A program made the position numbers and the translations under genes. Source: Lysobacterales bacterium (GTDB lineage: Bacteria > Pseudomonadota > Gammaproteobacteria > Xanthomonadales > SZUA-36). Taken from it: a DNA stretch of 56,635 nucleotides. The notes beneath the pieces are model-generated. The model was not told the DNA's origin, did no database searches, and saw only the letters and a program-made list of their open reading frames with translations. Shown here one piece after another: positions 11,704 to 44,154 of the stretch; the first letter of the stretch is position 1, and the number at the start of each line of letters is the position of its first letter. The stretch spans positions 1 through 56,635 of the forward strand of contig JABAAB010000028.1 of the NCBI GenBank assembly GCA_014238945.1, read 5' to 3'.

Positions 11704-12015
11704 TTATTCTGTGATTCGATCCTTTCCAATCATCAGAATGACAGCAACGGCACCAGCATTAATGATGGCACTCACATTACCGAGTATTGCTGTCAGGTGT
11801 TCACCGACTACCGGGATCGGTCCCATAGAACTGACTACCGAAGCCAGGGTCACCGCGGTGACCATGTAGATCAATCTTCCTTCTTCGGGTACACCCATAA
11901 AGCCCCAGGCAAGACCCAAAATGACCATGATCAGAGCAACGTATGGAATGGTCACAAATGCTGCTATGACGGCGACTGCCAGTGAAGCAATGCGAATGAT
12001 TTTAACTGTATCCAT
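11704..12015 (-). CDS. Small integral membrane protein
   Basis: 103 residues from ATG 12015, which follows a GGGAGAG ribosome-binding site at 4-5 nt. The open frame itself extends to a TTG at 12030. Three hydrophobic segments are visible: IASLAVAVIAAFVTIPYVAL running into IMVILGLAWGFM, IYMVTAVTLASVVSSM, and IINAGAVAVILMI. No catalytic residues or known family are recognised. It is transcribed alone, convergent with the cupin operon and divergent from the degraded region at 12.3 kb. Confidence 0.7.
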   Translation of the reverse strand: MDTVKIIRIASLAVAVIAAFVTIPYVALIMVILGLAWGFMGVPEEGRLIYMVTAVTLASVVSSMGPIPVVGEHLTAILGNVSAIINAGAVAVILMIGKDRITE

Positions 12016-12339
12016 TAGACTCTCCCTCAATTATAGTTTGGTTGGTATTATGTAACGCACCTTATAGGGTAGCACACTTGAAAATAATTGAATTCTCAGT
12101 ACAGGAGACCTCACAAAATTGACCTTTAATTGTACAATATGGAACGAAAACCAGATTATTATGATCATTATCAGGGAACTCCAAATATTGGATTATCGTA
12201 AAGTGAAGACCAGGGTAACCATTGAAACCCCCTTTTCCCGCGCAAGCCTGTAGGTTCATGAGTTTACTGACCAAATTCTTGATGCTGTTCATTATCCTGG
12301 CTCCAATGAGCGTAATCGGACCCGGCTTCGTCCACCCGT

Positions 12340-12882
12340 CCGGTCACCCATGCCGGTTCCTGGTCCCCTGACGGCAGCCGCCTTGTCTATGCTTCAGAGG
12401 AGACCGGATCAATATGGACGGCTCAGGAGAAACCCGTCTCAGTGAAAATGCAAACCAGATCTATCCCAGTATGAACCCGGTGGATGACCGCCTGTTGACC
12501 GCCGGTAATATCCCCGGTGCACCCAAAACCCGTATCTATGTCCGTGCCAGCGAATCTTCCACACACTCGGTGATCGCCGAAGAAATTGGCATTGTCGCCT
12601 ACAACCCGGACTGGTCCCCCGATGGAAAACGGATTCGTATTTGTTGCACAGTCAGATGATGATATTGCATCTGCAGCCATTTGAATTACGAGCACTGACA
12701 ACAGCGTTGCCCGTATGCTGGTGGAATTCCCTGAGGGCGTATTTGGACCACGCTGGTCACCGGACGGGCAATCGATCAGTTTTCGACGCGGCTGGACCTC
12801 ACCGCATATTGGATTGTTCCGAATCAACATTGATGGAAGCCATCTGGTTCAACTCACCAATACCGAATACCCCAAGTATTGA
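12340..12882 (+). pseudogene. Decayed TolB/PD40 beta-propeller fragment
   Basis: Three frames together spell WD40-like PD40 repeats. WSPDGSRLVYASEETGSIW comes first (from 12361), then MDGSGETRLSENANQIYPSM to NPDWSPDGKRI in another frame. After an apparent single-base insertion near 12636, a third frame runs FVFVAQSDDDIASAAI, a TGA at 12682, then EFPEGVFGPRWSPDGQSISF and INIDGSHLVQLTNTEYPKY to the stop at 12880. The WSPDG signature recurs three times, diagnostic of TolB-type propeller blades. Only about four blades remain, with a small deletion, a frameshift and a stop. It is a relic of a periplasmic or C-terminal sensor propeller. Confidence 0.75.
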
Positions 12883-13083
12883 AGCATATGCGGGGTGACA
12901 TTCAGCCCTCCCCTTGAATTACTGGAAAAGCGCTATATCCTAGTGTGCTGAAAACCGAATCAGGACATCCGTAATTCGCAGCAAAGCAACCACCCGATGG
13001 GCGATCCATCACCTGCCAACTCCAAACCAGACCCATGGCACTGGTTCGTTGGGCAACAGCACTGCTGTGCGCTGGAAACAGCA

Positions 13084-14919
13084 ATGAGTTTTCTTAGTGA
13101 ACTGAAACGCCGTAACGTTATCCGTGTTGCCCTGGCCTACCTGGTCGCATCGTGGTTGCTGTTGCAGGTGACCGATGTACTGATCGGGATGCTGGCTCTC
13201 CCCGACTGGATTGGAAAATTCATATTCCTGATCATCGTGATAGGCATTGTCCCGACATTGATTTTCTCATGGGCCTATGAGATGACCCCAGAGGGATTGC
13301 GACCCGAGGCAGAGGTAGACCATGACCAATCCATTACGCTTCATACGGCTAAAAAGCTCGATAGAATAACCATCATTTTGTTGTTGGTGGTAGCCAGTAT
13401 TATCGTGATCGATCGCCTGATACCGGAAAGTGCAGCCCCCTCCGATGCTGTAACTGTTGAGTCACCAAATAATATCCCAACGGCTACAGAATCCCCAGCA
13501 ACTCCGGCGCCAGTCCAGCAACCCATAACGGTGCCCGACGATGGCCGTCAATCGATTGCCGTTCTGCCTTTTATCAATATGAGTGATGATCAGCAAAATG
13601 AGTATTTTTCCGATGGGATTTCAGAAGAGTTACTCAATTCTCTGGTGCGTATCAAGAGCTTGAGGGTGCCTTCACGAACCTCTTCTTTCGTGTTCAAGAA
13701 CAGTGACAAGAACCTGCTGGAAATTGGCCGGGCATTAAACGTACAGCACATTTTGGAGGGCAGTGTGCGCAAGGCCGGCAAACAAATACGCGTCACCGCC
13801 CAATTGATCGAGGTCGCTACCGACACCCATTTGTGGTCAGAGACCTTTACCCGGTCATTTGATCTGGATGATATATTCGTGGTTCAGGACGAAATATCTC
13901 AACTCATCGTCGATGCCCTGCAATTGACTTTGAGTGGCGCCGACCTGCAAATGCTGAGTTCCCATTCCACCAATGACGTGGACGCCTACAACAAGTATCT
14001 GCTGGGCCGGCATCTGTGGAACCAGCGTACGGCAAAGTCACTGCTGGCGGCGGCAGAGCCGCTGCTTGAAGCAGTGGAAATGGATCCCGGCTATGACCAG
14101 GCGTGGGCTGCACTGGCCGATACCTATGTACTGATTCCGGAGTACCGGGGCGGCAGCATCCAGGAATATCTTCCCAAGGCCCGCGAGGCCCTAAACAAGG
14201 CATTGGAAATCAATCCGAATTCATCACGGGCACTCACCACATCCGGCTATTACAAGGCAGCTTTTGACTTTGACTGGGAAGGATCAAATGCGGACTTTGA
14301 ACGAGCCATAGAACTGGACCCCGGCTACGCAACAGCGCGCCAATGGTATGGAGAAAGCCTGGTCTGGCAAAGACGATTGGAACAGGGCCTGGACCAACTT
14401 CGGGTGGCCAGAGTTGCAGACCCCTTGTCCAGGGTGGTACGCCACGTACCCGGTTACTTTTTATTATGGAATTTTCGTTTTGACGAATCTGAAAAACATC
14501 TCAAGGATGCACTGGAACTTGGCCAACCACTGCGCTGGACCATCCAGAACCTGGAGATGTTGCATACATTCAGGGGTGAATATGAACAAGCCCGGCAACG
14601 CGCCAGGCAACTGGCCGCGATGGAGGATTTTGATCCCGCACTGGAACTGTCATTCATAGATGCAATGGAAAATCCCGATCTCAAACCGCATGCCCTGAAG
14701 TTGCTTGAACAACGTCAGGATATGAATGATGGAGTATTTGGAAGGGCATTGTACCTGGCATTACTTGGAGAACATGAGTTGGCACTGGCAAATCTTGAAA
14801 AAGCATTCGCCGCAGGTGACCCCTATGCCGTGCAGATGAATTACATGAAGATGTATGACCCGCTACGGGAAAAACCCCGTTTCCAGGCCATGCTGAGGGC
14901 AATGAACCTGTCGGAGTAA
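13084..14919 (+). CDS. TolB-like/TPR inner-membrane protein, paralogue 1
   Basis: 611 residues from ATG 13084; the longer frame start at 12997 lacks the family N-terminus. The opening MSFLSELKRRNVIRVALAYL precedes two or three membrane segments and a third near residues 95-110 (ITIILLLVVASIIVIDRL). A linker rich in Pro/Ala/Thr follows, then a TolB-N/FlgO-like module (SIAVLPFINMSDDQQNEYFS, ISEELLNSL, HILEGSVRKAGKQIRVTAQL) and TPR repeats to the C-terminus (AWAALADTYVLIPEY, ALEINPNSSRALTTSG, AIELDPGYATARQW). Related proteins often carry adenylate cyclase or wHTH modules; none is present here. Role unknown, perhaps an envelope scaffold or signalling protein. It has a paralogue at 48601-50664. 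Confidence 0.85.
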   Translation: MSFLSELKRRNVIRVALAYLVASWLLLQVTDVLIGMLALPDWIGKFIFLIIVIGIVPTLIFSWAYEMTPEGLRPEAEVDHDQSITLHTAKKLDRITIILLLVVASIIVIDRLIPESAAPSDAVTVESPNNIPTATESPATPAPVQQPITVPDDGRQSIAVLPFINMSDDQQNEYFSDGISEELLNSLVRIKSLRVPSRTSSFVFKNSDKNLLEIGRALNVQHILEGSVRKAGKQIRVTAQLIEVATDTHLWSETFTRSFDLDDIFVVQDEISQLIVDALQLTLSGADLQMLSSHSTNDVDAYNKYLLGRHLWNQRTAKSLLAAAEPLLEAVEMDPGYDQAWAALADTYVLIPEYRGGSIQEYLPKAREALNKALEINPNSSRALTTSGYYKAAFDFDWEGSNADFERAIELDPGYATARQWYGESLVWQRRLEQGLDQLRVARVADPLSRVVRHVPGYFLLWNFRFDESEKHLKDALELGQPLRWTIQNLEMLHTFRGEYEQARQRARQLAAMEDFDPALELSFIDAMENPDLKPHALKLLEQRQDMNDGVFGRALYLALLGEHELALANLEKAFAAGDPYAVQMNYMKMYDPLREKPRFQAMLRAMNLSE

Positions 14920-15017
14920 GTCTTTTTTGACTGGCGTTGGGCCCGGTCTATCTTTATTCAGCTGAATTTGTCATTATTTAACAGACTGTTACAAAATTTG
15001 GACTGATAAAAGGACAG

Positions 15018-15023
15018 TATAAT
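15018..15023 (+). promoter_or_regulatory. Candidate -10 box
   Basis: A consensus TATAAT lies 46 bp before the ATG at 15069. The -35 region 17 bp upstream is poor (ATTTGG-like), so activation or a different sigma factor is possible. A GGGGAAACAGG ribosome-binding region follows just before the ATG. Confidence 0.3.
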
Positions 15024-15068
15024 AGTCGTCTGACCAGGCGAAGGACTCGCAACAAAGGGGAAACAGGA

Positions 15069-17733
15069 ATGATCTCAGGGAAGCAACCGGTCTTTTCATT
15101 CTTTAATCATCGAATACACAGCTTTTGCCGTCGAAACGGTCACACAGCTTTGCTTTCGCTGTTGTACGCAGCTCTGATTGTAATCAGCTGCTGGCCCCTG
15201 ACAATAATCGCCGAACAGGGTGTCGTGCCCCATCCCAAGGGCTGTACGGATGATGAAATCTATATCAGCTCCCAGGACTGGTGGCTGACCACACCGGGGG
15301 AAGTGGGTCAGGACGGTTAACCGGGTGACAGCTTTGGTCATTTGCACACCGAACTATGCTTTCCGCACAAGGCCACGATCTCGGGTGAGATGACCCTGAA
15401 TGTCAACTCGATCATGCACCACAACCCCGGTGACTTTTACAAAATTGTCATCCAGATCTGGCAGGAAGACTGGTCCCCGGATCCGCAGATCTGTGGAGAA
15501 GGTGCCGCGGTCGCGTGCAAGGAATTCGATCCGCCCCGTACCCTGGCGACCTGTGAGACCAGCGGAGGATCGTTGATAGGCGAGGAGACCTGCCTGTGGC
15601 AGGATTCGTTGACTTTTGACACCAGTATCTTCCCGAATGATGGCTGGCAGCAATTTCGGGTGCGTGGCAAGGTAGATCAGGCAGATGGTTCCGGGATGCG
15701 CACGTCCACAGGACTGCATGCCTACCTGAGCCACGGCAAACCAATCTCTCACGTTTATGAAAACCCCGATCGAATCGAAGGGCGTGGCTGGTATACGGAT
15801 GCCAACTACGCCGAGACCAGTGTTAAAGAGCTTACTTCAGCCCCGGTTACCGGTCTGTGGGCACCCTGGCTTGAAATGACACCCGGATCTGAAGGAATTC
15901 CGGTCACCAGTCATCGTGCGGCTCTTGATGCGGCCATCCATGCCGGCAATCAGGGTACTGAGTTACTCGATGGTCCCGGTGAGTTCACCGGTCGACACAT
16001 GATTGACACGACCACTCTGAGCAATGGCTGGCACAAACTGTTTCTGCGTTCCAGCCAGTTTGAGCCCATCAGCGGGTCTACCAATTCCAGCATTAACGTG
16101 ACGTTCTTTGAAGCCTCAATGAGTCGCCACCGGCCTGTGGCCTGGTCCATCTCCAGCCGGTGGTGGCCGATTCCCATGTACGGGGCGATACCTTCCAGAA
16201 TGACAATGATGGTGACGAAGACGAACTGATCGTAAAAAGCAGTTCCTCCGACCATTACACCCGCAGAGCCCATCTGCGTTTTGACCTCAGCCATTTTGAC
16301 GCATCAAGTGCCGCAAGTGCGGTCTTTACCGCCCGGGTCAGCTATCACCAGACACCGGGTGTGGCGGTTCCTCTCAAACTGTACTCTGTAGATTCCGACA
16401 GCTGGGATGAGAGCACCACCAGTTGGAGCAATGAGCCCGCAACGGGTGTTCTTCTGGGTACCGTCAACGTGACCGATGTGGGTGATGTGAGTATTGACAT
16501 CACCTCCCACGTGGAATCAGAACTCGCCGGGGACAAGATGGTGTCACTGGTGCTACTCGACAACTCGGGTACCAACCAGATGCTCAGATTCAAGAGCCGC
16601 TCCGCCGAAAATGACCCGCCGCAGCTGGCAGTGACCCCCTCAGCGGGTGAGTGCACGACACCCGGCACCCCACCACCGGATACCCAAGCTCCCAGCGTGC
16701 CTTCCGTTTTCCAGGCATCGGGGATAACGACCCACAGCGTCGATCTGACCTGGTCTGCCTCTACGGATAATGTGGGGGTCACCGGTTATGAAGTTTTCCG
16801 TGACGCAGACCTGCTGACCACAACCAGCGATACTGGTCACACGGACAACGGTCTCACACCCGCCACCACCTACACCTACCAGGTGCGCGCACTGGATGCT
16901 GCTGGCAACCGGTCGGCATTGACGGACAGCGTTCCGGCTACGACCGACAGTTCGTCAACCGATGTCATCACTCTGATTGTGCCACCTACAAGGCCAAAAG
17001 AGACGAGTTCAAGGTCACTGCAACCAGTAGTGAACAACCCTCGGTGACCATGCAGGTCGTGGGCTTCGGGACAATGACTTACGCAAGAAACAAGGTTGAG
17101 TTCAAGCTCCGACCTGTGGGCAGCACGGTTATTCCGGCCACCATTGATATCGTTTCAAGTGGAGGTGCCCTGCTGACCGTGCCCGTGGAGGGTGTGGAGC
17201 CACCACAGTTACCGGGAGCGGCCAGTAATCCATCACCGGCAGACAATGCCGCAAATGTCGATATCAATACGGACCTGGGCTGGAATACAGGCTCACAGAC
17301 CGATACTCACGACGTTTATTTCGGCACCAGCACAAGCCCAGCAGAGGTCTCTACCGGTCAGACCTCTTCTTCCTACGATCCGGGTGTTCTCGAAGAGCAA
17401 ACGACCTATTACTGGCGTGTTGACGAAGTAAATACACTGGGTATTACAACCGGTGCCCTATGGACATTTACCACGGGTGATGCCACCACGGGAGACACGC
17501 TTGTCATTACCCGGGCAGAGTGGAAGGCCAGCAGATCAGAGTTGAAGGTCGAAGCCACCAGCACGGGTGCTCCCGCTGCCGTATTAACGCTGGAAGGATT
17601 TGGGGACCTGGACTACGACTCGCGTAAGGATAAGTACAAACTCACCGTCAGACCAGTAAACAGCAATCCAGGCAGCGTGACCATTAGCTCGGATCAGGGT
17701 GGCAGTTCAACTACCACGGTGACACCCAGATAA
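15069..17733 (+). pseudogene. Broken multi-domain secreted protein (DNRLRE/FN3 modules)
   Basis: One long gene is spread over three frames. The first part has a signal-peptide-like N-terminus (LLSLLYAALIVISCWPL), then a TAA at 15318 in the middle of a region that continues in the same frame (DSFGHLHTELCFPHKATISG, then YKIVIQIWQEDWSPDP and further). Near 16135 the frame shifts into a DNRLRE-type module (VVADSHVRGDTFQNDNDGDE, WDESTTSWSNEPATG) and an FN3 domain (TTHSVDLTWSASTDNVGVTG to TYQVRALDAAGNRSALTDS). Near 16980 it shifts again into two similar C-terminal modules (TYKAKRDEFKVTATS and ITRAEWKASRSELKVEATS types) flanking a second FN3-like domain. Intact, it would be an extracellular adhesive or carbohydrate-binding protein of about 885 residues. 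Three lesions make expression of the whole unlikely unless they are sequence errors. Confidence 0.8.
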
Positions 17734-32325: not shown

Positions 32326-33642
32326 TTATCGGTGTGAAACTTGTAATACCTGTTCTATCAATGGCTTATGCCGATCGATGAACTTCTCCAGACCAACACG
32401 TACGCTGGAAAAATGTGCGCTTGTCATGGGCAATGACAGGAACAGGTCACCCCGGTTACACAAAAGCAACCCGTCGAGCAGCATTTCCATGTGTAACAGT
32501 GGCCGAAGCGAACGGTTTCCGGCACTGATGTCAGTGGCCTTTTCAATGGGCTTGTGTGTGAAATGAACTGCGAATATGGATCCCATTCCGTTGCAGTACA
32601 TCGGCACCGCCAGGGCGGCAAACATCTGGTTGAGTGAAACCCGGAATGCCTCGGAACTTACCAGGAATTCCATTGCCCGTTGGGGGGTAAATATCTGTCC
32701 CATCGCGACACTGCCTGCGGCCATCGAGCAGGCATTATTATTGAAAGTGCCGGCATGATTCCAAAAACCGGGCTGTTTGGGATTGAAGCGTGACATGATT
32801 TCAGCACTGCCACCGAATGCACCTGTTGGCAACCCACCACCGATAAATTTTCCCACTGTGGTCAGATCCGGTTTTATCCCCAACTCTCCCTGCATTCCGG
32901 CAGGGCCAATCCGGGAGGTTTTGACCTCGTCAAATATCAGCAACGCCCCGGTTTTCTCTGTCTCATAGCGGAGCATTTCCATGAATTCGCCGCTTCCGGG
33001 GATATTGCCACCGGCGCCCAGTATGGGCTCAACGATGACGGCCGCCAGTTCGTCACCGGTCCGGCGTATCAAATCGGCCGTGCCTTCGGTATCGTTGTAA
33101 TCGGCAAGCAGGAAATCATGCGGGACGTTGAGCATCTGGCCGCCAGCAGGAAACTTGATGACTCCGCCGTGATAGGCCTCCCTGAATACCAGTATCCTGT
33201 CACGGCCGGTCAGGGCCCTGGCCGCCGACAGTGCCATCAGGTTCGCCTCGGTGCCGGAATTGCAAAATCTGACCTGATCAATGGACGGAAATCGTGTGCA
33301 CAACAGGGCCGCCAGTTCTCTTTCATAACGGGTGGGTGCACCCATGACGATGCCACTGTCCAGCGCCTCGTGCACCGCCCGTTTGATCTTTTCCTCAGAA
33401 TGTCCAAACAGCCCAGCGGAGAACTCGCCAACAAAATCAACATAACGGTGCCCATCCACGTCCACGAGTTCAGCACCTTCTCCTGCAACCATGGTCAGTG
33501 GGTACGGATCATAGTGTAATACCGCCCGTGTATTGCCACCGGGCATATGGGCCCCGGCACTGTTGTCTGCAACTTCACTTTTCGGATTGGCGGCAATATA
33601 GCGTGCGCGGGCATCTTCAATGGCTTGATCGAGTAAATTCAT
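32326..33642 (-). CDS. Class III PLP transaminase, beta-amino-acid type
   Basis: 438 residues from ATG 33642 (ATG 33666 is possible). Fold-type I with GSA-aminomutase-like architecture: MPGGNTRAVLHYDPYPL, CNSGTEANLMAL, the Asp in LLIFDEVKTSR (Asp238) and the PLP lysine in TTVGKFIGGGLPTGAFGG (Lys265). The N-terminal PGGNTRAV Arg (Arg39) sits where the Variovorax beta-phenylalanine transaminase has Arg41, which binds the beta-amino-acid carboxylate; the catalytic Lys (265 versus 267 there) keeps the same offset. Similarity continues along the chain, as recalled from memory. This favours a beta-amino-acid transaminase over glutamate-1-semialdehyde aminomutase. It is followed by CoA-transferase genes whose substrate is a 3-oxo acid, exactly its predicted product type. 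Confidence 0.85.
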   Translation of the reverse strand: MNLLDQAIEDARARYIAANPKSEVADNSAGAHMPGGNTRAVLHYDPYPLTMVAGEGAELVDVDGHRYVDFVGEFSAGLFGHSEEKIKRAVHEALDSGIVMGAPTRYERELAALLCTRFPSIDQVRFCNSGTEANLMALSAARALTGRDRILVFREAYHGGVIKFPAGGQMLNVPHDFLLADYNDTEGTADLIRRTGDELAAVIVEPILGAGGNIPGSGEFMEMLRYETEKTGALLIFDEVKTSRIGPAGMQGELGIKPDLTTVGKFIGGGLPTGAFGGSAEIMSRFNPKQPGFWNHAGTFNNNACSMAAGSVAMGQIFTPQRAMEFLVSSEAFRVSLNQMFAALAVPMYCNGMGSIFAVHFTHKPIEKATDISAGNRSLRPLLHMEMLLDGLLLCNRGDLFLSLPMTSAHFSSVRVGLEKFIDRHKPLIEQVLQVSHR

Positions 33643-33690
33643 GTTGCTGTTGGCTTTTTCATGCATTCCGTAGCGACTTTCTGAATGCCA

Positions 33691-34335
33691 TCATATTGGC
33701 GGCAATATTGGAGCACCGGTTTTACTTTCAACTTCCTCAAAATCGATACCGGGGGCCAGTTCCACCACCCGGAATCCATCCGGCGTGACATCAACCACGG
33801 CCAGGTCGGTAAATATGCGGGAAACCACACCGGGCCCTGTCAATGGGTAGCTGCACCTTTCAACCAGCTTTGCGTCACCACCACGGGTGCTGTGCTTGGT
33901 AATAACGAAAATCTGTTTGACCCCCTGTACCAGGTCCATGGCACCGCCTACCGCCGGTATGGCACCCGGCGCACCCGTGGACCAGTTGGCAATGTCACCG
34001 TTTGACGCCACCTGCATGGTGCCGAGCACACACACATCAATGTGGCCTCCCCGTATCATGCTGAAGCTGTCCGCATGGTGGAAATATGACGCGCCTGGCA
34101 GCGCGGTAACATACTTCTTGCCGGCGTTCATCAGGTCCAGGTCCAGTTCATCCTCTTCGGGTGGCGGACCCATACCCAATAAACCGTTTTCCGTGTGATA
34201 GATGAATTCCCGGCCCTCGGGCACATACCTCGTGACCAGTTCCGGTATTCCAATACCCAGGTTTACATAGGAACCATCGGGTATATCCCGGGCTGCCCGG
34301 GCGGCCATCTGTTCTCTTGTCCAGCCTGCGCTCAT
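33691..34335 (-). CDS. 3-oxoacid CoA-transferase, subunit B
   Basis: 214 residues, full length for the beta subunit of class I CoA-transferases. The catalytic glutamate is in the ENGLLGMGP motif; also seen are VNLGIGIPELVTRYVPEG and the GAPGAIPAVGGAMDLVQGVK core. With subunit A it moves CoA from succinyl- or acetyl-CoA onto a 3-oxo acid in the cytoplasm. Its start overlaps the stop of subunit A by 4 bp (ATGA), so the two are translationally coupled. It lies 48 bp upstream of the transaminase gene. Confidence 0.93.
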   Translation of the reverse strand: MSAGWTREQMAARAARDIPDGSYVNLGIGIPELVTRYVPEGREFIYHTENGLLGMGPPPEEDELDLDLMNAGKKYVTALPGASYFHHADSFSMIRGGHIDVCVLGTMQVASNGDIANWSTGAPGAIPAVGGAMDLVQGVKQIFVITKHSTRGGDAKLVERCSYPLTGPGVVSRIFTDLAVVDVTPDGFRVVELAPGIDFEEVESKTGAPILPPI

Positions 34336-35042
34336 GGGTAGCGCCCTGCCCCGGCGATGAGGGTGTCTTCGTGTATCGGGTCGGTCACTTCGACCACGCG
34401 ATTGACAAAAATCCCGGGTGTGATGACATGCTCGGGATCGATCTCACCCGCAGTTACCAACTTCCCGGTCTGCACTATGGTCGTGGTGGCTGCCATGCAC
34501 ATGATGGGGCTGAAATTCCGGGCGGTCTTGTTGTAGGTCAGGTTACCGAGCGGGTCAGCGACTTCGCATTTGATCAGTGCAAAATCCGCCTTGAGCCAGG
34601 GTTCCATCACGTAGGTTCTCCCATCGAACTTTCGATCCTCTTTCCCCTGCGCCAGTACCGTGCCGACGGTGGTGGGTGTATAAAAGGCCGGAATACCGGC
34701 ACCGGCAGCACGGATTCGTTCGGCCAGCGTGCCCTGTGGCACCAGCTCAAGTTCGATTTTCCCCTCTTTGTACATCCTGGGGAAAACCCTGGACTGGCTG
34801 GACCGGGGAAAAGAGCAAATCATTTTGCTGACCTGGCCGTTGCCGATCAGTGCCGCCAGACCCACTTCTCCATTGCCCGTATTGTTATTGATCACGGTGA
34901 GATCTTTTGCGCCATGGTCTATCAGGGCATGCAGTAATTCTATCGGACTCCCCGACGCACCAAAGCCACCCACCATCACAATCGCGCCATCCGGGATGTC
35001 GGCGACTGCTTCGGCAACGGACGAAAACTTCTTGCTAATCAC
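34332..35042 (-). CDS. 3-oxoacid CoA-transferase, subunit A
   Basis: 236 residues, with the alpha-subunit signatures AIVMVGGFGASGSPIELLHA, TVINNNTGNGEVGLAALI, the SFPRSSQSRVF segment and GIPAFYTPTTVGT. Sequence supports the SCOT/AtoD/PcaI group but does not separate acetoacetate from 3-oxoadipate or other 3-oxo acids, so no symbol is assigned. It is the first enzyme gene downstream of the RpiR regulator (26-bp gap) and overlaps subunit B. Confidence 0.93.
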   Translation of the reverse strand: MISKKFSSVAEAVADIPDGAIVMVGGFGASGSPIELLHALIDHGAKDLTVINNNTGNGEVGLAALIGNGQVSKMICSFPRSSQSRVFPRMYKEGKIELELVPQGTLAERIRAAGAGIPAFYTPTTVGTVLAQGKEDRKFDGRTYVMEPWLKADFALIKCEVADPLGNLTYNKTARNFSPIMCMAATTTIVQTGKLVTAGEIDPEHVITPGIFVNRVVEVTDPIHEDTLIAGAGRYP

Positions 35043-35068
35043 GGGTGCTCCTCATTGTTTACAACCAA

Positions 35069-35911
35069 CTACAGGAATGCCTCAGTTTGTCCCCACAACG
35101 TCTCGATGCGGTCTATACGTGTCGTCGCTTCGTCATGCAGGTCCTTGGCAATCTGGGACACGAGTAGTTCTGCCATCGATACGGCAGGAACAGAACTGTC
35201 AAACGGCCCCACTGCGGGCACTTCGATTTCACACCAGGTATCGGCCAGTTCGACCAGTGGAGAAAGCGGGCTGTCGGTAATGGCCACGATGGTGACACCA
35301 GCATCGGCAAAAACACGCGTGGCCGTGGTCACCTGCCGGCGGTAACGAAAAAAATCGAACACTACGGCCGCATCATGTGGTCCGGCGTCACTGAGATCGG
35401 TTCCGAATGAATGTTCCTCCAGCGAACGCACACCCGGTCGAACCATGGACAAGCCACTGTGCAATGCGTGCGCGCCGGCCTGGGAAGTTTCACCAGAAAG
35501 AATCCAGACATTTCTGGCCCGCACCAGTGGTTTGGCAAGCACCTTCAGACGGTCCCCTTCAAGCGCATCAAATACCGAAGAAATTGCCCGGTCGATCGCC
35601 GCCCTTGCTCCAAGGGGGGTCTCTTCATCGTGCCTGATCCGTTCGCTTGGACGTGCCAGGCGGTGGGACAGGTTGCTGCGCATGTGTCTCTGCAACTGTG
35701 TGTAGCCACTGAATCCAAGCTTGTTGGCAAAGCGGACGATGCTGGGCCGGCTGGTCCCGACAAGACCGGCCAGATCCGAGACCGTACCAAAAGCTATCAA
35801 CGTGGGTTCGGCCAGTACCTGCTGCGCAATACGCTCATCGGTGGGTGTCAGCCCGTTGCCGACCGCCGCGACAAGATCTGAAATAGACGTGGGTGATTTC
35901 ATCATGTTCAT
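35069..35911 (-). CDS. MurR/RpiR-family regulator (HTH plus SIS)
   Basis: 280 residues. The N-terminal HTH_6 domain (ERIAQQVLAEPTLIAFGTVS, LVGTSRPSIVRFANKLGFSG, YTQLQRHMRS) is followed by a SIS domain (VWILSGETSQAGAHALHSGL; DAAVVFDFFRYRRQVTTATR; GVTIVAITDSPLSPLVELAD). SIS domains usually bind phosphosugars, yet in several RpiR proteins beside amino-acid or betaine genes the ligand is a different metabolite. The gene leads the CoA-transferase/transaminase operon and is divergent from the aminomutase gene with paired repeats between, so it likely controls both. ATG 35911 and ATG 35905 are both possible starts. Confidence 0.9.
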   Translation of the reverse strand: MNMMKSPTSISDLVAAVGNGLTPTDERIAQQVLAEPTLIAFGTVSDLAGLVGTSRPSIVRFANKLGFSGYTQLQRHMRSNLSHRLARPSERIRHDEETPLGARAAIDRAISSVFDALEGDRLKVLAKPLVRARNVWILSGETSQAGAHALHSGLSMVRPGVRSLEEHSFGTDLSDAGPHDAAVVFDFFRYRRQVTTATRVFADAGVTIVAITDSPLSPLVELADTWCEIEVPAVGPFDSSVPAVSMAELLVSQIAKDLHDEATTRIDRIETLWGQTEAFL

Positions 35912-35914
35912 ATC

Positions 35915-35954
35915 GTTACATTATCACAATTTATAAGTTCAATGTGTTACATTA
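35915..35954. promoter_or_regulatory. Paired operator-like repeats in the RpiR/aminomutase divergent promoter
   Basis: GTTACATTA occurs at 35915-35923 and again at 35946-35954, 31 bp apart, i.e. three helical turns on the same face. The second copy overlaps the small inverted repeat AATGT-GTT-ACATT. The element fills the gap of about 80 bp between the divergent starts, where a dimeric or tetrameric regulator would be expected to bind. Confidence 0.55.
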
Positions 35955-35990
35955 ACGCTTGGAAGAAACATTGCAAAAATGAGGTGTGAA

Positions 35991-37445
35991 ATGGCAAGGG
36001 CAGAAAGATACGTTCCGGCAGACAGGGAAAAGGCATTCCTGGATACCATCGAAAACCCCAAGTATGACCGTCAGATAATCAACGGTCTGAAACCTTTCTT
36101 CCAGAACAAGGCGCCGGAGGACATCAAGAGCTTTTATTCCGCCGATGAACTCTCCGTATTGGCCGGCCTGCGTGGTACCGATCGCGACGTAGAAGCACGG
36201 ATGCCGGTCAAGATGACCCGTCATTTTTTCGAGATGGCCAAGCACAGTAAACCCCTGCAAAGAATCATCAAGGCCAACCCGGATGAAACCCTGAACCTGG
36301 CGGGCTCGGAAGACCCGGGGCACCAGATGGATTTCGCCCCGGTCGAAGGACTGCTGCACAAGTATGAAATGGGTCTGCTGTATTCGGTTTCCACCTGCTC
36401 GGCGCATTGTCGCTTCTGCTACCGCGAAGAACTGATCAGCCAGAAGGACATAGAACGCCAGGACGGCACCGTGGCCAAGAAAGGTCTGGCCAAGATCAAG
36501 GAAGTCACCGATTACATACGCGCACACAATACCGTTGTTGCCGCCAATGGTGGCCTGCACCCTGATACCGGGCGCGAGAAACTCCGGGAAATTCTGTTGT
36601 CCGGTGGCGACCCGATGGTTCTGCCCAACCGGAAAATCGGTTCGTGGATGGGCGCGCTTGCAGAATCGGGTGTTGAATCAATAAGGCTGGGCAGCAAGGA
36701 GATGTCATTCCATCCAAAACGCTTTGACGAGGCCTTTCTGTCGATGCTGGACAATTTTCACGAAACCTACCCCGAGGTCGGTTTCAGGCTGATGATCCAT
36801 TTCAATCATCCCGATGAGTTTCTGCTCAAAAAAGAAGATGGCAGCTACCAGACCAACCCGAACGGGTCACTCAAATGGCACGAGGATACGCTCCGCGCGA
36901 TCGAAGGTGTCACTTCCCGTGGATGGGTCAATGTCGAGAACCAGGCACCGATCATCAAGGGTATCAACGATGATCCCGATGCACTCAGAGTCATGCAGCG
37001 AGCCCTCTACCGGGTCGGTGTGGGTAACCACTATTTCTTCTGTGGCAGGGACATTGTGGCCTACCGGGCCTTCAACGTCCCGATTGAGACCGCATGGAAT
37101 ATATTGAACGAATCCCAGAAGGGACTTTCCGGTGTGGAAACGCATGCTCGTTTGTCCATCACCCATTACCTGGGCAAAACCGAGGTATCCGCGGTGACCA
37201 GCAAACCGATCCCAGGTGTGCCGGGGACTGAGAACGGTGTGCTGATCTTCAAGATTCTGCGCAACGCACTGGACGCTCCGGACCGTGGCAAGGTCTGTAT
37301 CGTGGGTCGCAACCCGGACGCCATCTGGTTTGACGACTACGAGGACCGGGTCATCTTCGACGAAGCCGGACTGTTCGACTACGTCCGCGTCGACAAGAAC
37401 ACTATTGAGCTTGACCAGCCCATGGATATCGCTGTCGGCTCCTAG
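35991..37445 (+). CDS. KamA-family radical SAM aminomutase
   Basis: 484 residues from ATG 35991; ATG 35979 is also in frame, but GAGGTG sits just upstream of the second. The radical-SAM cluster is Cys136-x3-Cys140-x2-Cys143 (CSAHCRFCYRE), followed by LLSGGDPMVL and the HFNHPDEF strand as in lysine 2,3-aminomutase. The usual PGGGGK PLP loop is degenerate (HYLGKTEV), but its Lys is kept (Lys396). An Asp is kept in IKGINDD, where lysine aminomutase has an Asp that recognises the side-chain amine; the second such Asp region reads FCGRDIVAY and aligns Arg at that spot without gaps. Two insertions (around AANGGLHPDTGREK and LLKKEDGSYQTNPNG) are not in the classical enzyme. It should move an alpha-amino group to the beta carbon; the substrate may not be lysine. 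Confidence 0.88.
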   Translation: MARAERYVPADREKAFLDTIENPKYDRQIINGLKPFFQNKAPEDIKSFYSADELSVLAGLRGTDRDVEARMPVKMTRHFFEMAKHSKPLQRIIKANPDETLNLAGSEDPGHQMDFAPVEGLLHKYEMGLLYSVSTCSAHCRFCYREELISQKDIERQDGTVAKKGLAKIKEVTDYIRAHNTVVAANGGLHPDTGREKLREILLSGGDPMVLPNRKIGSWMGALAESGVESIRLGSKEMSFHPKRFDEAFLSMLDNFHETYPEVGFRLMIHFNHPDEFLLKKEDGSYQTNPNGSLKWHEDTLRAIEGVTSRGWVNVENQAPIIKGINDDPDALRVMQRALYRVGVGNHYFFCGRDIVAYRAFNVPIETAWNILNESQKGLSGVETHARLSITHYLGKTEVSAVTSKPIPGVPGTENGVLIFKILRNALDAPDRGKVCIVGRNPDAIWFDDYEDRVIFDEAGLFDYVRVDKNTIELDQPMDIAVGS

Positions 37446-39897: not shown

Positions 39898-41427
39898 ATG
39901 AATTTGGAACAAGCGAGTCAGTTAACCCATGCCCAGTGGCAACAAATGGCGGCGGACCTAAAAAACACAGCCAGTACCGGGTTGTTTATCGGTGGTAAAT
40001 TTGTCGATGCCGTCAAGGGTGGAACCTTCGACAATATCAACCCGGTGGATGGCAGTCTCATCAACCGGTGTGCCGCTGGAACCGAGGAGGACATCAACCG
40101 GGCCGTCGCAATCGCCAAAGCCAGCTTCAAATCAGGTGAATGGTCCCGCGCTGCTCCGCGTGAGCGTATGACGGTTATGTACAAGTGGGCGGAATTGATT
40201 GAAGAAAATGGCGCTGAATTGTCCCTCATGGACACCCTCGATATGGGTAAACCCATCACGGATATGGTGGATGTCGATCTGCCCATGTGTATCGAGACCG
40301 TCCAGTATTTTGCTGAATGTATCGATAAGGTTACAGGCACGGTAACTGCCACGGAATACGATGTGATGAGTACCGTTCTGCGAGAACCCATCGGGGTGGT
40401 TGGCTGTATTTAACCCTGGAATTATCCGCTGCTGATGGCCCTGTGGAAAATCTCGCCATCCCTGGCGGCCGGTAACTGCACCATCCTCAAACCGGCCTCG
40501 CAATCGCCATTGAGCTGTAATCTGGTGGCAGAACTGTTTGTACAGGCCGGCGGCCCCGCAGGAGCTCTGCAAGTGGTGAACGGTCGGGGCAGTGAAGCCG
40601 GCCAGGCCCTGGCCAGGCATATGGACGTATCAAAAATCAGCTTCACCGGCTCCACCGAAGTGGGTAAATTGATGCATATATATGCCGGTGAGTCCAACAT
40701 GAAAAAAGTCTCATTGGAATGCGGTGGCAAGGGCCCGCAAATATTTTGTGAGGACCTGCAGGGAGAACTTCTTGATCGTGGGGTCGAAACCGCCATCAAT
40801 GGCATTTTCTTCAACATGGGTGAAGTCTGCTCCGCCGGTTCACGGCTGATTGTGCATGAAAAAATCTACGATGAATTCGTTGCAAAATTTATCGAAAAAG
40901 GCAAGGACGCCTATATCTGTGGCGATCCCCTGGATCCATCCGTAAACCTTGGTCCGCTGATCGATCATGGCTCACAGGCCCGTGTGTTGGGAATGATTGA
41001 AACGGCCAGGTCCGAAGGCGGCAGGGTCGAATTTGGTGGTACCGCACCGGCAGGGCCCCTCGAAAAAGGGGCCTATGTCGTCCCCACCATGATCACCGGG
41101 GTTCAGAACAATGATCACCTCGCGCAATATGAGGCATTTGGACCAGTGGTCGCGGTCATCAAAGTCAAGGACGATGACGAAGCCATCGAGGTTGCCAACA
41201 ATTCCATCTATGGCTTGCAGGGCAGCGTGTGGACCGACAATTACCGCAGGGCCATGCGATATGTAAGGGAAATAGAGTGTGGCACCTTCCTGGTGAACAG
41301 CTTTGAAGAAGGTGACATGACACAACCATTTGGTGGCTATAAGCAATCGGGCAACGCCAAGGACAAATGCTTTGAAAGTCTGTTGAGTTACACCAACTCA
41401 AAGGCTGCCTGGTTCCGGCTGAACTAG
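39898..41427 (+). pseudogene. NAD(P)-dependent aldehyde dehydrogenase interrupted by one TAA
   Basis: The gene spans 509 codons, normal for the family, with a TAA at 40411-40413 inside the conserved VVGCI-PWNYPLLMALWK strand. Everything else is intact: KPASQSPLSCN, the Rossmann SFTGSTEVGKLM, the glutamate region LECGGKGPQIF and the catalytic Cys in GEVCSAGSRL, ending with FGGYKQSGN. It resembles gamma-aminobutyraldehyde/betaine-aldehyde types in the amine-catabolism branch. Between the amine dehydrogenase and amine oxidase genes, an aldehyde dehydrogenase fits well. One substitution would restore it (for example TTA), so the lesion is either recent or an error. Restart at ATG 40435 would give a C-terminal fragment lacking part of the NAD site. 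Confidence 0.85.
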
Positions 41428-41538
41428 ATTTCGCTGCAACACTACGGTTTGACTATGATGCGCTGACCGACTGGCAGCGCAAACCCGGTCGATAACAGAA
41501 TTGTAGCCCGTGGATCAAAAGAAAGTTATCCTGACCCC

Positions 41539-42948
41539 ATGGTTCATGACGCATTAAAGTCCGCCAAGGCCCGCCCACTCTGGCACGATCCGGAGATCAT
41601 GCCAGAAGTACAACCGGCTCTGTGCGCAGATGAAAAATGCGAACTGTTGATTGTTGGCGGTGGTTTTACCGGCCTATGGGCAGGCCTACAGACCAGGGAG
41701 CGCAACCCCCAGGCAGATATCATTCTGATTGAGCAAACCTTTGTTGGTGATGGAGCGTCCGGCCGCTGCGGCGGTTTCATCAATACCAGCCTGGCCCACG
41801 GTAAAACCAATACCGAAGCCCAGTTTCCGGGGGAATGTGAACAACTCGCAGAGCTTGGTACGAAAAACCTGAAAGAACTGCTTGAGACTCTGGAACGTTA
41901 TGACATCGATGCACGGTATGAAAAAACCGGGGAAATGTATGTTTCCCTGGATGAAGAATCCACCCATCGCCTAAGACAAAATTACGAATCCATGAAGGCT
42001 TCCGGCGCAGATGTGGTCTGGTTTGACAAAGAACAGGTGCGCGAACAGGTCAATTCACCCACGTTCCATGCGGGAATATGGGATCGTGGTGGGCAGGACG
42101 GTGTCATTGACCCGGCACGTCTTTGTTTTGGTTTGAAACACGTTTTATTGACGCTTGGTGTGCGCATTTATGAAGGTACGAGGCTGATCAATCTTGAGTC
42201 GGTCGGTAAAACGGGCATGCGCGCTGTTTGTGCGGGCGGTGTTATTTACAGTGATAAAGTATTGATAGCTACCAACGCTTTTCCAAGTAAAATCAGCCGT
42301 ATACGACGGTCAGTCATTCCAGTGTGGGACTATCAAATTGCCACCGAACCACTGACCAACGAACAATGTGAAGCAATTGGTTGGCACAAATCTCGCCATG
42401 CGCTGGCAGATTTCGTGAATATGTTTCATTATTTTCGCATGACAAAGGATAACCGTATTACCTACGGAGGAGGTGGCGCGGTACGTTATTACTATAACCG
42501 GGGCACACACATAGATTTGATGGATGCACCGGCCCGTTACGAACAACTGGTCAGAGAGTTCTTTGAAACGTTTCCACAGTTGGAAAAACTGGGTGTCAGG
42601 TTCTCAAACATGTGGGGTGGCATCATCGCCACATCTACACGTTTCTCGATGGTGCCGGGTACCGCCTATGGTGGCCGCGTTGCCTGGTCGGTAGGTTATA
42701 CCGGCCATGGGGTCAGTGCTTCCCGTTTCGGAGCACGTATTGCGATAGAACTTTTGGGTTATGCGCCGTCAGATATACTGAAGCTCCAGTTTGTAACCAA
42801 GAAAGCCCTGCCCTGGGCACCGGAGCCGTTGCGCTGGCTAGGTGTGAAACTGACCCAACAGGCATTGATCAAAGCCGACCGCAATGGGGGAAGACGTGGT
42901 TTGTGGCTTAAATTTCTGGACTGGCTTGGCCTGGGCTTTACCTGTTAA
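41539..42948 (+). CDS. FAD-dependent amine oxidoreductase (DAO/PuuB-like)
   Basis: 469 residues of the DAO superfamily. The dinucleotide-binding motif is LLIVGGGFTGLWAGLQTRER; GDGASGRCGGFINTSLAHGK is the second FAD motif typical of the gamma-glutamylputrescine-oxidase-like branch; WGGIIATSTRFSMVPG and VGYTGHGVSASRFGARIA cover the C-terminal FAD contacts. Members oxidise primary or secondary amines or amino acids, forming an imine and then an aldehyde, in the cytoplasm. Next to the aldehyde dehydrogenase it forms a two-step amine-to-acid pair as in the Puu pathway; glutamylation enzymes are not present, so the Puu name is not given. Confidence 0.87.
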   Translation: MVHDALKSAKARPLWHDPEIMPEVQPALCADEKCELLIVGGGFTGLWAGLQTRERNPQADIILIEQTFVGDGASGRCGGFINTSLAHGKTNTEAQFPGECEQLAELGTKNLKELLETLERYDIDARYEKTGEMYVSLDEESTHRLRQNYESMKASGADVVWFDKEQVREQVNSPTFHAGIWDRGGQDGVIDPARLCFGLKHVLLTLGVRIYEGTRLINLESVGKTGMRAVCAGGVIYSDKVLIATNAFPSKISRIRRSVIPVWDYQIATEPLTNEQCEAIGWHKSRHALADFVNMFHYFRMTKDNRITYGGGGAVRYYYNRGTHIDLMDAPARYEQLVREFFETFPQLEKLGVRFSNMWGGIIATSTRFSMVPGTAYGGRVAWSVGYTGHGVSASRFGARIAIELLGYAPSDILKLQFVTKKALPWAPEPLRWLGVKLTQQALIKADRNGGRRGLWLKFLDWLGLGFTC

Positions 42949-42990
42949 ACAGCTAGCCATACGGATTTCTTGATCAGGAAGCTAGCAAAT

Positions 42991-44154
42991 ATGTCAATGC
43001 CTGAAGATGACTTTTACCATTCGATCCCCCACTTTTCTGAATTCAACGGTCTGACCGAAGATCATCACTATCGACCGGTGCCCCTGGATTGGTGGGTGGT
43101 TTTGACCGACGTCAGGGATTCCACAAGGGCCATTGAGGCCGGGCAATACAAGGAGGTCAACCGAATGGGCGCGGCCTCGATCGTGTGTGCATCCCTGGCA
43201 ATGGATGGTGCTGACTGTGCATACGTGTTCGGTGGAGATGGGGCTACCCTGTTGGTACCACCCGGCAATATCGAGGCCGTGTTGAAGGAGTTGTCGGTGC
43301 TCAAAAGCCTGGCCACTGAACGATTTGGACTTGACTTGCGTGTGGGTTCTGTGGGGGTCGAAGAAGCCTGTGACTCAGGGGCCAGGATTGAGGCAGCACG
43401 TTTTCAGTTGGCGGATGGAAAATGTGTAGCCTTCTTTCGCGGTGGTGGCCTGAACGTGGCTGAAAACCGCTTCAAAGGCAATGAAGAAAAATACGGGGTA
43501 GACTCCCTGCCTCTCGGTCAGCCTGATCTGGACAATTTGTCCTGCCGCTGGAATGCAGTACCCGCCAGCCTGGGGGTTGCGCTTGCCGTGCTGGTCCGCG
43601 CACAGGGTGCAGACCACCCGGCGACCTACCAACAGGTACTCAAGGGGATGGAAAGCATCGTCGAACATGGCCTGGACGCCGCCAATCCGGTTAAGCGCAA
43701 TGTCATGAGTTACAAAAGCTGGTGGACTTGTGTGCGTGATGAGGCACGCCAGTACCCCTCCGTATTCAACAGGGCTTTCTTCAGGAAACTGGTGGGCATC
43801 GCCGTGGCGGTGATTTCCCTGAAATGGGGAATCAACCCGGGTTTCTATGATCCCAAGACGTATGCAGAGTCTATTCCGACCCACTCTGACTACCGAAAAT
43901 TCGATGATACCCTGCGCATGATCATTGACTGTACGCCCGCACAGGTAGAACAACTGGAAGTCTTTTTTGAGAACCTCTATCAAAGAGGAGAAATCTGTTA
44001 CGGGCTGCATGCAGCCAGGGAATCACTGGTGACCTGTTTCGTTGACGGTACCGAACCGGGCGAGCACATCCACTTCGTGGACGGAGGTGTCGGTGGCTAC
44101 GCAATGGCTGCAAAGCAACTAAAAGCACGCCTGGGCCAGACGGTTACCGGTTGA
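42991..44154 (+). CDS. DUF3095 protein, nucleotidyl-cyclase-like
   Basis: 387 residues from ATG 42991 (AGGAAG 10 nt upstream; ATG 42997 also possible). It matches the DUF3095 family: EFNGLTEDHHYRPVPLDWWV, LTDVRDSTRAIEAGQYKEVN, CAYVFGGDGATLLVPP. The DVRDST and FGGDGA motifs occupy the positions of the metal-binding Asp and loop of class III nucleotidyl cyclases, suggesting a degenerate or specialised cyclase fold. The C-terminal 180 residues have no family I can name (a hydrophobic stretch VGIAVAVISLKWGINP, then a soluble tail). It is 42 bp behind the amine oxidase gene and probably in its operon, perhaps as regulator or signal producer. Confidence 0.8.
   Translation: MSMPEDDFYHSIPHFSEFNGLTEDHHYRPVPLDWWVVLTDVRDSTRAIEAGQYKEVNRMGAASIVCASLAMDGADCAYVFGGDGATLLVPPGNIEAVLKELSVLKSLATERFGLDLRVGSVGVEEACDSGARIEAARFQLADGKCVAFFRGGGLNVAENRFKGNEEKYGVDSLPLGQPDLDNLSCRWNAVPASLGVALAVLVRAQGADHPATYQQVLKGMESIVEHGLDAANPVKRNVMSYKSWWTCVRDEARQYPSVFNRAFFRKLVGIAVAVISLKWGINPGFYDPKTYAESIPTHSDYRKFDDTLRMIIDCTPAQVEQLEVFFENLYQRGEICYGLHAARESLVTCFVDGTEPGEHIHFVDGGVGGYAMAAKQLKARLGQTVTG

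Follow-up and report, generated by a model that had tools for sequence, protein, structure and literature searches.

We report a gene cluster that probably serves the catabolism of L-2-aminoadipate, found in a 56,635-nucleotide contig of a Lysobacterales bacterium (GenBank assembly GCA_014238945.1, contig JABAAB010000028.1; the whole contig is hereafter called the window). The cluster occupies positions 32326–37445 and comprises five genes, encoding a class III transaminase, subunits B and A of a CoA-transferase, an RpiR-family regulator and a divergently transcribed KamA-like radical SAM (S-adenosylmethionine) protein, here named KamL. All five had been recognized in a sequence-only reading of the window, and they lie where that reading placed them; their families were examined by Pfam and NCBIfam hidden Markov model (HMM) scans against curated cut-offs. 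We consider it likely that the cluster represents an undescribed route, in which a new radical SAM 2,3-aminomutase turns 2-aminoadipate into 3-aminoadipate and so leads it to the beta-ketoadipate pathway with no loss of CO2, and that this route occurs in several phyla, in many cases together with RpiR and a conserved operator with a 31-bp period.

In the proposed route, KamL, equipped with SAM, a [4Fe-4S] cluster and pyridoxal phosphate (PLP), would shift the amino group of 2-aminoadipate from C2 to C3. The class III transaminase would then hand the amino group of 3-aminoadipate to an oxo acid, leaving 3-oxoadipate; the PcaIJ-type CoA-transferase would convert the latter to 3-oxoadipyl-CoA; and a PcaF-type thiolase, whose gene is part of the cluster or adjoins it in many relatives, though not here, would cleave this ester to succinyl-CoA and acetyl-CoA. 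Lysine could feed the route, being converted to 2-aminoadipate through piperideine-6-carboxylate dehydrogenase. The reactions, their substrates and direction, as well as the regulation, are predictions made from gene content and alignments. The same order of aminomutase, beta-transaminase, CoA-transferase and thiolysis had been suggested in the sequence-only reading, and it fits the genomic context described below. The substrate, left open at that time, is most likely L-2-aminoadipate, rather than an aromatic or aliphatic amino acid.

Conservation of the gene set

A scan of genome contigs yielded 113 stretches encoding a KamL relative, and counts given out of 80 refer to the best 80 of these 113. 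According to the record titles, the loci come from gammaproteobacteria, alphaproteobacteria, actinobacteria, planctomycetes, acidobacteria, and others. At the identity thresholds used, subunits A and B of the CoA-transferase are each encoded near KamL in 65 loci, a transaminase of either of two types in 61 and RpiR in 48. The genes expected by the sequence-only reading to stay together in relatives indeed do so: the CoA-transferase and the transaminase are both found beside KamL in 60/80 loci, and all four genes, RpiR included, in 43/80. As many contigs stop near KamL, the 37 loci in which KamL is flanked by 5 kb or more on both sides were considered separately; both partners are present in 28 of these and neither in nine. 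Since the CoA-transferase and transaminase genes adjoin KamL at such frequencies in both samples, the arrangement is not due to chance. In many planctomycete and actinobacterial clusters, the genes follow each other on a single strand in the order KamL, A, B, transaminase; that is, the gene set persists while the gene order changes. KamL is present in only 2 of 369 sampled gammaproteobacteria, which made a class-wide co-occurrence search uninformative.

A Mesorhizobium sp. 113-3-3 plasmid typed as conjugative (L170) carries KamL, fdxA, transaminase and CoA-transferase genes at 11989–16840, downstream of BREX-1 defence genes. Here the KamL homologue is annotated as hypothetical, and the present work proposes a function for it. 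The ferredoxin gene fdxA comes after KamL, and a 70% homologue follows KamL in L072, which fits electron supply to a radical SAM enzyme. Viral contigs gave one remote KamL match (24% identity). Actinobacterial KamL genes with no transaminase or CoA-transferase gene nearby (L062–L065, L067, L069, and L070) share a different neighbourhood.

Cluster enzymes and the predicted substrate

Both CoA-transferase subunits pass the cut-offs of the pcaI_scoA and pcaJ_scoB families (scores in Table 1), whose names also cover ScoAB. Subunit A shares 66–70% identity with its top 25 plasmid matches, and subunit B has plasmid matches of up to 66.7% identity. In each of the five inspected plasmid relatives of subunit A (62–70% identity), genes for a B subunit and PcaF come next, in one case beside pcaHCD, and of two more distant relatives inspected (about 42%), one lies beside pcaH and the other does not. 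The closest PDB matches of both subunits are succinyl-CoA:3-ketoacid CoA-transferases, and the PDB match lists of A and B hold no chain named 3-oxoadipate CoA-transferase. The CoA_trans proteins that come after the transaminase in L170 have no NCBIfam match.

A thiolase gene, counted at an identity of at least 55% to the thiolase of L051, is located within or next to the cluster in 24/80 loci, and in many gammaproteobacteria it is placed between the genes for the transaminase and CoA-transferase subunit B. The L051 protein, the one member scanned against family models, passes both TIGR02430 for pcaF (661.8 bits, cut-off 597) and PRK09050 (684.7, cut-off 605), and its best PDB match is the beta-ketoadipyl-CoA thiolase 6pca. 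At another locus, L078, which has no CoA-transferase match, the gene 3' of the transaminase encodes a BKACE protein (PF05853) passing NF053568, the model for 3-oxoadipate:acetyl-CoA acetyltransferase (477 bits, cut-off 350). Because two non-homologous enzymes, the pcaF-type thiolase and BKACE, point to 3-oxoadipate, the same compound is indicated in both settings. Given the context of thiolase, BKACE, and CoA-transferase, the product of the transaminase would therefore most simply be 3-oxoadipate, preceded by 3-aminoadipate and 2-aminoadipate.

In the PDB, the nearest matches of the window transaminase are 6iz9 and 2yku, both beta-transaminases, and 4ao9, a beta-phenylalanine aminotransferase (E 1e-116 to 1e-119). 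Two arginines of the window protein, Arg47 and Arg405, align with arginines of these enzymes, which in the 4ao9/2yku type we take to have substrate-binding roles, and Lys273, in the motif TVGK, is the probable PLP lysine. The sequence-only reading had already pointed to the pattern of beta-phenylalanine transaminases and to the first of these arginines; the pattern holds, while the residue, numbered Arg39 there, becomes Arg47 when counting begins at the first ATG and would be Arg39 if translation started at the methionine in position 9. Judging from the nearest solved relatives of the enzyme, the substrate of the cluster could be an aromatic or hydrophobic beta-amino acid. We regard this as very unlikely, as the thiolase belongs to the 3-oxoadipate type, to which the CoA-transferase probably belongs too, and a different class III transaminase frequently takes the place of the window's: among the 80 loci, the window's type is found in 18 and a HemL-like type in 43, and the two never occur together. 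The window protein is proposed to be of beta-transaminase type and is predicted to act on 3-aminoadipate.

The KamA-type label given to KamL by the sequence-only reading agrees with its fold, its CxxxCxxC motif and its PLP lysine, but the relationship is more remote than the label implied. Six KamA-type NCBIfam models match KamL, all far under their cut-offs (83/600, 82/199, 81/396, 79/369, 75/650, and 66/525 bits); these include the KamA family model TIGR00238 (81.8 bits, cut-off 199.2), TIGR03820 for lysine 2,3-aminomutase AblA (66 bits, cut-off 525.4), and TIGR04368 for glutamate 2,3-aminomutase (75.3 bits, cut-off 650). The Pfam Radical_SAM match is also below its gathering score (20.4 vs. 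29.5). The sole sequence relative of KamL found in the PDB, lysine 2,3-aminomutase 2a5h, is also the best Foldseek match of its AlphaFold model (E 1.4e-14, template modelling score 0.54 by query, root-mean-square deviation 7.4, 18% identity). The model has a mean predicted local distance difference test (pLDDT) score of 77, with values under 50 at 107–134, 141–144, and 356–361, among others. Taken together, these data give moderate support for a lysine 2,3-aminomutase fold. The motif cysteines Cys140, Cys144, and Cys147 and Lys400, the probable PLP lysine, are invariant among the aligned relatives.

Arg357 is invariant in 31 aligned KamL sequences and falls, in the 2a5h alignment, in the column of Asp293 of the lysine 2,3-aminomutase CsLAM. 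We take Asp293 and Asp330 of CsLAM to be the aspartates that bind the side-chain amine of lysine, and we assume, from the spacing to the PLP lysine, that the Asp330 column corresponds to Ser393 of KamL. With this assumption for the serine, the aspartate pair of lysine 2,3-aminomutase is replaced by Arg/Ser in KamL. At the Arg357 column, a second alignment shows aspartate for a protein annotated as arginine 2,3-aminomutase (L177). According to PMC3965090, glutamate 2,3-aminomutases have Lys and Asn in place of the lysine-binding aspartates.

The latter comparison brings up glutamate itself as a possible substrate: KamL would be a glutamate 2,3-aminomutase, and beta-glutamate would be transaminated to 3-oxoglutarate and then activated. 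Glutamate is always available, and by the same comparison (PMC3965090) KamL resembles glutamate aminomutases in having a basic residue in place of a lysine-binding aspartate. Nevertheless, we find this alternative unlikely. The replacing residues differ (Arg and, by the spacing assumed above, Ser, rather than Lys and Asn), the glutamate model is missed by a wide margin, cluster enzymes of relatives (the L051 thiolase and the L078 BKACE) are 3-oxoadipate-specific by curated models, and piperideine-6-carboxylate dehydrogenase is enriched in the carriers (see below). The substrate proposed here, 2-aminoadipate, is also longer than glutamate.

A route through beta-lysine, similar to the yod-kamA operon of Bacillus subtilis, is to be considered as well. 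This operon has the order yodTSRQP-kamA and includes genes for CoA-transferase subunits. According to PMC6522883, B. subtilis KamA is accompanied by the class III transaminase YodT, is about 60% identical to CsLAM and makes beta-lysine from lysine in vitro, its physiological function being called undetermined. The same kinds of enzymes are combined in both systems; unlike B. subtilis KamA, KamL is remote from the CsLAM type and has the lysine-binding aspartate replaced. It is this replacement, seen in all 31 aligned sequences, together with the low score against the AblA model, that makes a beta-lysine route hardly credible for the cluster; such a route would also account neither for the pcaF-type thiolase nor for the 3-oxoadipate BKACE.

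Proposed supply of 2-aminoadipate and relation to known pathways

Piperideine-6-carboxylate dehydrogenase makes 2-aminoadipate, and its distribution agrees with 2-aminoadipate as the substrate of KamL. The enzyme is over the model cut-off in 39 of 50 KamL genomes, compared with 55 of the 369 sampled gammaproteobacteria (Fisher p = 9e-20, with the two KamL carriers removed from the control), and in the genome of the window it scores 767.8 bits at a cut-off of 730. The CoA-transferase and the transaminase are present at the KamL locus in 44/50 carriers, 36 of which have the dehydrogenase over the cut-off. In L060, a dehydrogenase passing NF050084 adjoins the transaminase, and in L061 a homologue is encoded at most 2 kb from it. 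The gene after the transaminase in L012 carries both saccharopine dehydrogenase domains, and the C-terminal one is present in 26/50 carriers. Another class III transaminase, encoded after KamL in L017 (11466–12977), has a 52% homologue next to the dehydrogenase at locus L110, in the L071 genome, and homologues in 14 of 49 genomes examined, including those of the window and L017 itself. We consider the L017/L138 type a candidate lysine 6-aminotransferase. The members at L017 11466–12977 and L138 1456–2976 score under the curated cut-offs shown for them.

Several observations weigh against the proposed route. The control for the dehydrogenase is gammaproteobacterial only and not phylum-matched, whereas the KamL carriers span phyla and were selected by us; 11/50 carriers lack the dehydrogenase over the cut-off. 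The saccharopine dehydrogenase C-terminal domain has no match in the genome of the window, and saccharopine was set aside as a source of 2-aminoadipate there. The same genome has no pcaF-grade thiolase: its best candidate, 53% identical to the cluster thiolase, reaches 506.8 bits against the TIGR02430 cut-off of 597. This cut-off is exceeded in 30/50 KamL genomes, while the other 20, planctomycetes included, give no pcaF match over it. With regard to the active site of KamL, the 2a5h alignment is weak around Asp293 (6 bits in that stretch), and Arg357 lies within the region 356–361, where pLDDT is under 50. In addition, two rhizobial proteins annotated as lysine 2,3-aminomutase (L175, L176) share the arginine at this column, hence Arg357 alone is not diagnostic.

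Furthermore, in 12/80 loci KamL has neither the CoA-transferase nor the transaminase nearby. Among the six of these 12 genomes that were searched, three (L073, L075, L080) encode the dehydrogenase and pcaF over the cut-offs elsewhere, and three (L063, L064, L069) have neither over the cut-off. Such loci, which lack catabolic partners close to KamL, would suit a reverse, biosynthetic role, with a beta-amino dicarboxylate being made, e.g., as a solute. We see little chance of this, given that the frequent presence of the CoA-transferase with the transaminase, the thiolase of the 24 loci and the 3-oxoadipate-cleaving enzyme of L078 all speak for breakdown.

A final point against the route concerns its exclusiveness. 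A glutaryl-CoA-dehydrogenase-like acyl-CoA dehydrogenase, encoded about 2 kb from piperideine-6-carboxylate dehydrogenase in the genome of the window, has relatives of 47–84% identity in 41/50 carriers, although the NCBIfam scan does not confirm its naming as glutaryl-CoA dehydrogenase. The idea that the new route strictly replaces the glutaryl-CoA route was rejected for this reason; another 2-aminoadipate route probably coexists in the carriers, and the catabolism of 2-aminoadipate through KamL would be additional to it.

The glutaryl-CoA route loses two CO2. By comparison, the proposed one would convert the C6 compound 2-aminoadipate to C4 and C2 CoA esters with no decarboxylation; if correct, it would add an aminomutase specificity and 3-aminoadipate as a metabolite, and would connect the breakdown of lysine with the beta-ketoadipate pathway. 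Its last two steps would be those of pcaIJF, catalyzed by homologous enzymes, except that an amino acid, in place of an aromatic ring, would be the source of 3-oxoadipate. As described in PMC3149608, the clostridial fermentation of lysine and a Cloacamonas variant of it likewise start with an aminomutase and proceed through a beta-keto acid to an acetyl-CoA-dependent cleavage, and the Cloacamonas variant also has a HemL-like beta-transaminase, but one acting on a CoA ester; both differ in having lysine as the substrate and in employing a second aminomutase as well as a dehydrogenase. Neither a 2-aminoadipate aminomutase nor the proposed route was found among the papers listed by a literature search that had most subscription journals outside its coverage. 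The statement of the sequence-only reading that it knew no described pathway combining exactly these enzymes should be qualified, since the same kinds of enzymes recur together in B. subtilis yod-kamA. The kinds of enzymes being known, it is their combination, the substrate, and the likely specificity of the aminomutase that appear to be new.

Putative regulatory repeat and neighbouring genes

The region between rpiR and kamL contains a direct GTTACA repeat, absent from the sequence-only reading, in which GTTACATTA recurs with a period of 31 bp (35915–35954). It occurs at a single site in the window and in none of 100 shuffles. Among 48 such intergenic regions, the window's included, 35 contain two copies of GTTACA, always with the 31-bp period, and 13 contain one copy; in 200 rounds of shuffling, two copies were observed in a mean of 0.085 regions (maximum 1). 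The exact pattern was found, once each, in 40/178 loci, namely in 36/80 relatives, where it sits at the rpiR–kamL junction and is conserved across phyla, in three copies of the window, and in L103; it is absent from all 30 dehydrogenase loci L104–L133. We propose that the repeat is a putative RpiR operator, through which RpiR would control the divergent genes. A period of three helical turns suggests two regulator dimers on one face of the DNA. By eye, a LysR-like gene adjoins KamL in 10 RpiR-less, mostly alphaproteobacterial loci.

Table 1. Features of the KamL cluster in the window.
Feature	Position	Strand	Basis
Class III aminotransferase of beta-phenylalanine-aminotransferase type; proposed 3-aminoadipate transaminase	32326..33666	-	Aminotran_3 HMM
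3-oxoacid CoA-transferase subunit B; proposed 3-oxoadipate CoA-transferase	33691..34335	-	CoA_trans; TIGR02428, 291.6 bits (cut-off 243.55)
3-oxoacid CoA-transferase subunit A	34332..35042	-	CoA_trans; TIGR02429, 355.1 bits (cut-off 128.5)
RpiR-family regulator	35069..35911	-	HTH_6 and SIS HMM matches
Putative operator of RpiR, GTTACATTA as a direct repeat with 31-bp period	35915..35954	+	Repeat and its conservation
KamL, divergent KamA-like radical SAM protein, 488 amino acids; proposed 2-aminoadipate 2,3-aminomutase	35979..37445	+	Remote KamA-type matches

The neighbouring genes for an aldehyde dehydrogenase and a DAO-type oxidoreductase (39898–42948) were considered as a source of 2-aminoadipate and dismissed, as they recur with KamL only as weak matches: aldehyde dehydrogenases of 28–31% identity in three loci, two of them being piperideine-6-carboxylate dehydrogenases, and a DAO protein of 26% in one. 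The best-scoring models for the window aldehyde dehydrogenase are those for PuuC and betaine aldehyde; the DAO protein reaches 127 of the 600 bits required for pipecolate oxidase. A single in-frame TAA (40411–40413) breaks the aldehyde dehydrogenase frame (39898–41427), indicating either a pseudogene or an assembly error, and the DAO-type gene is followed by one for a DUF3095 protein (42970–44154).

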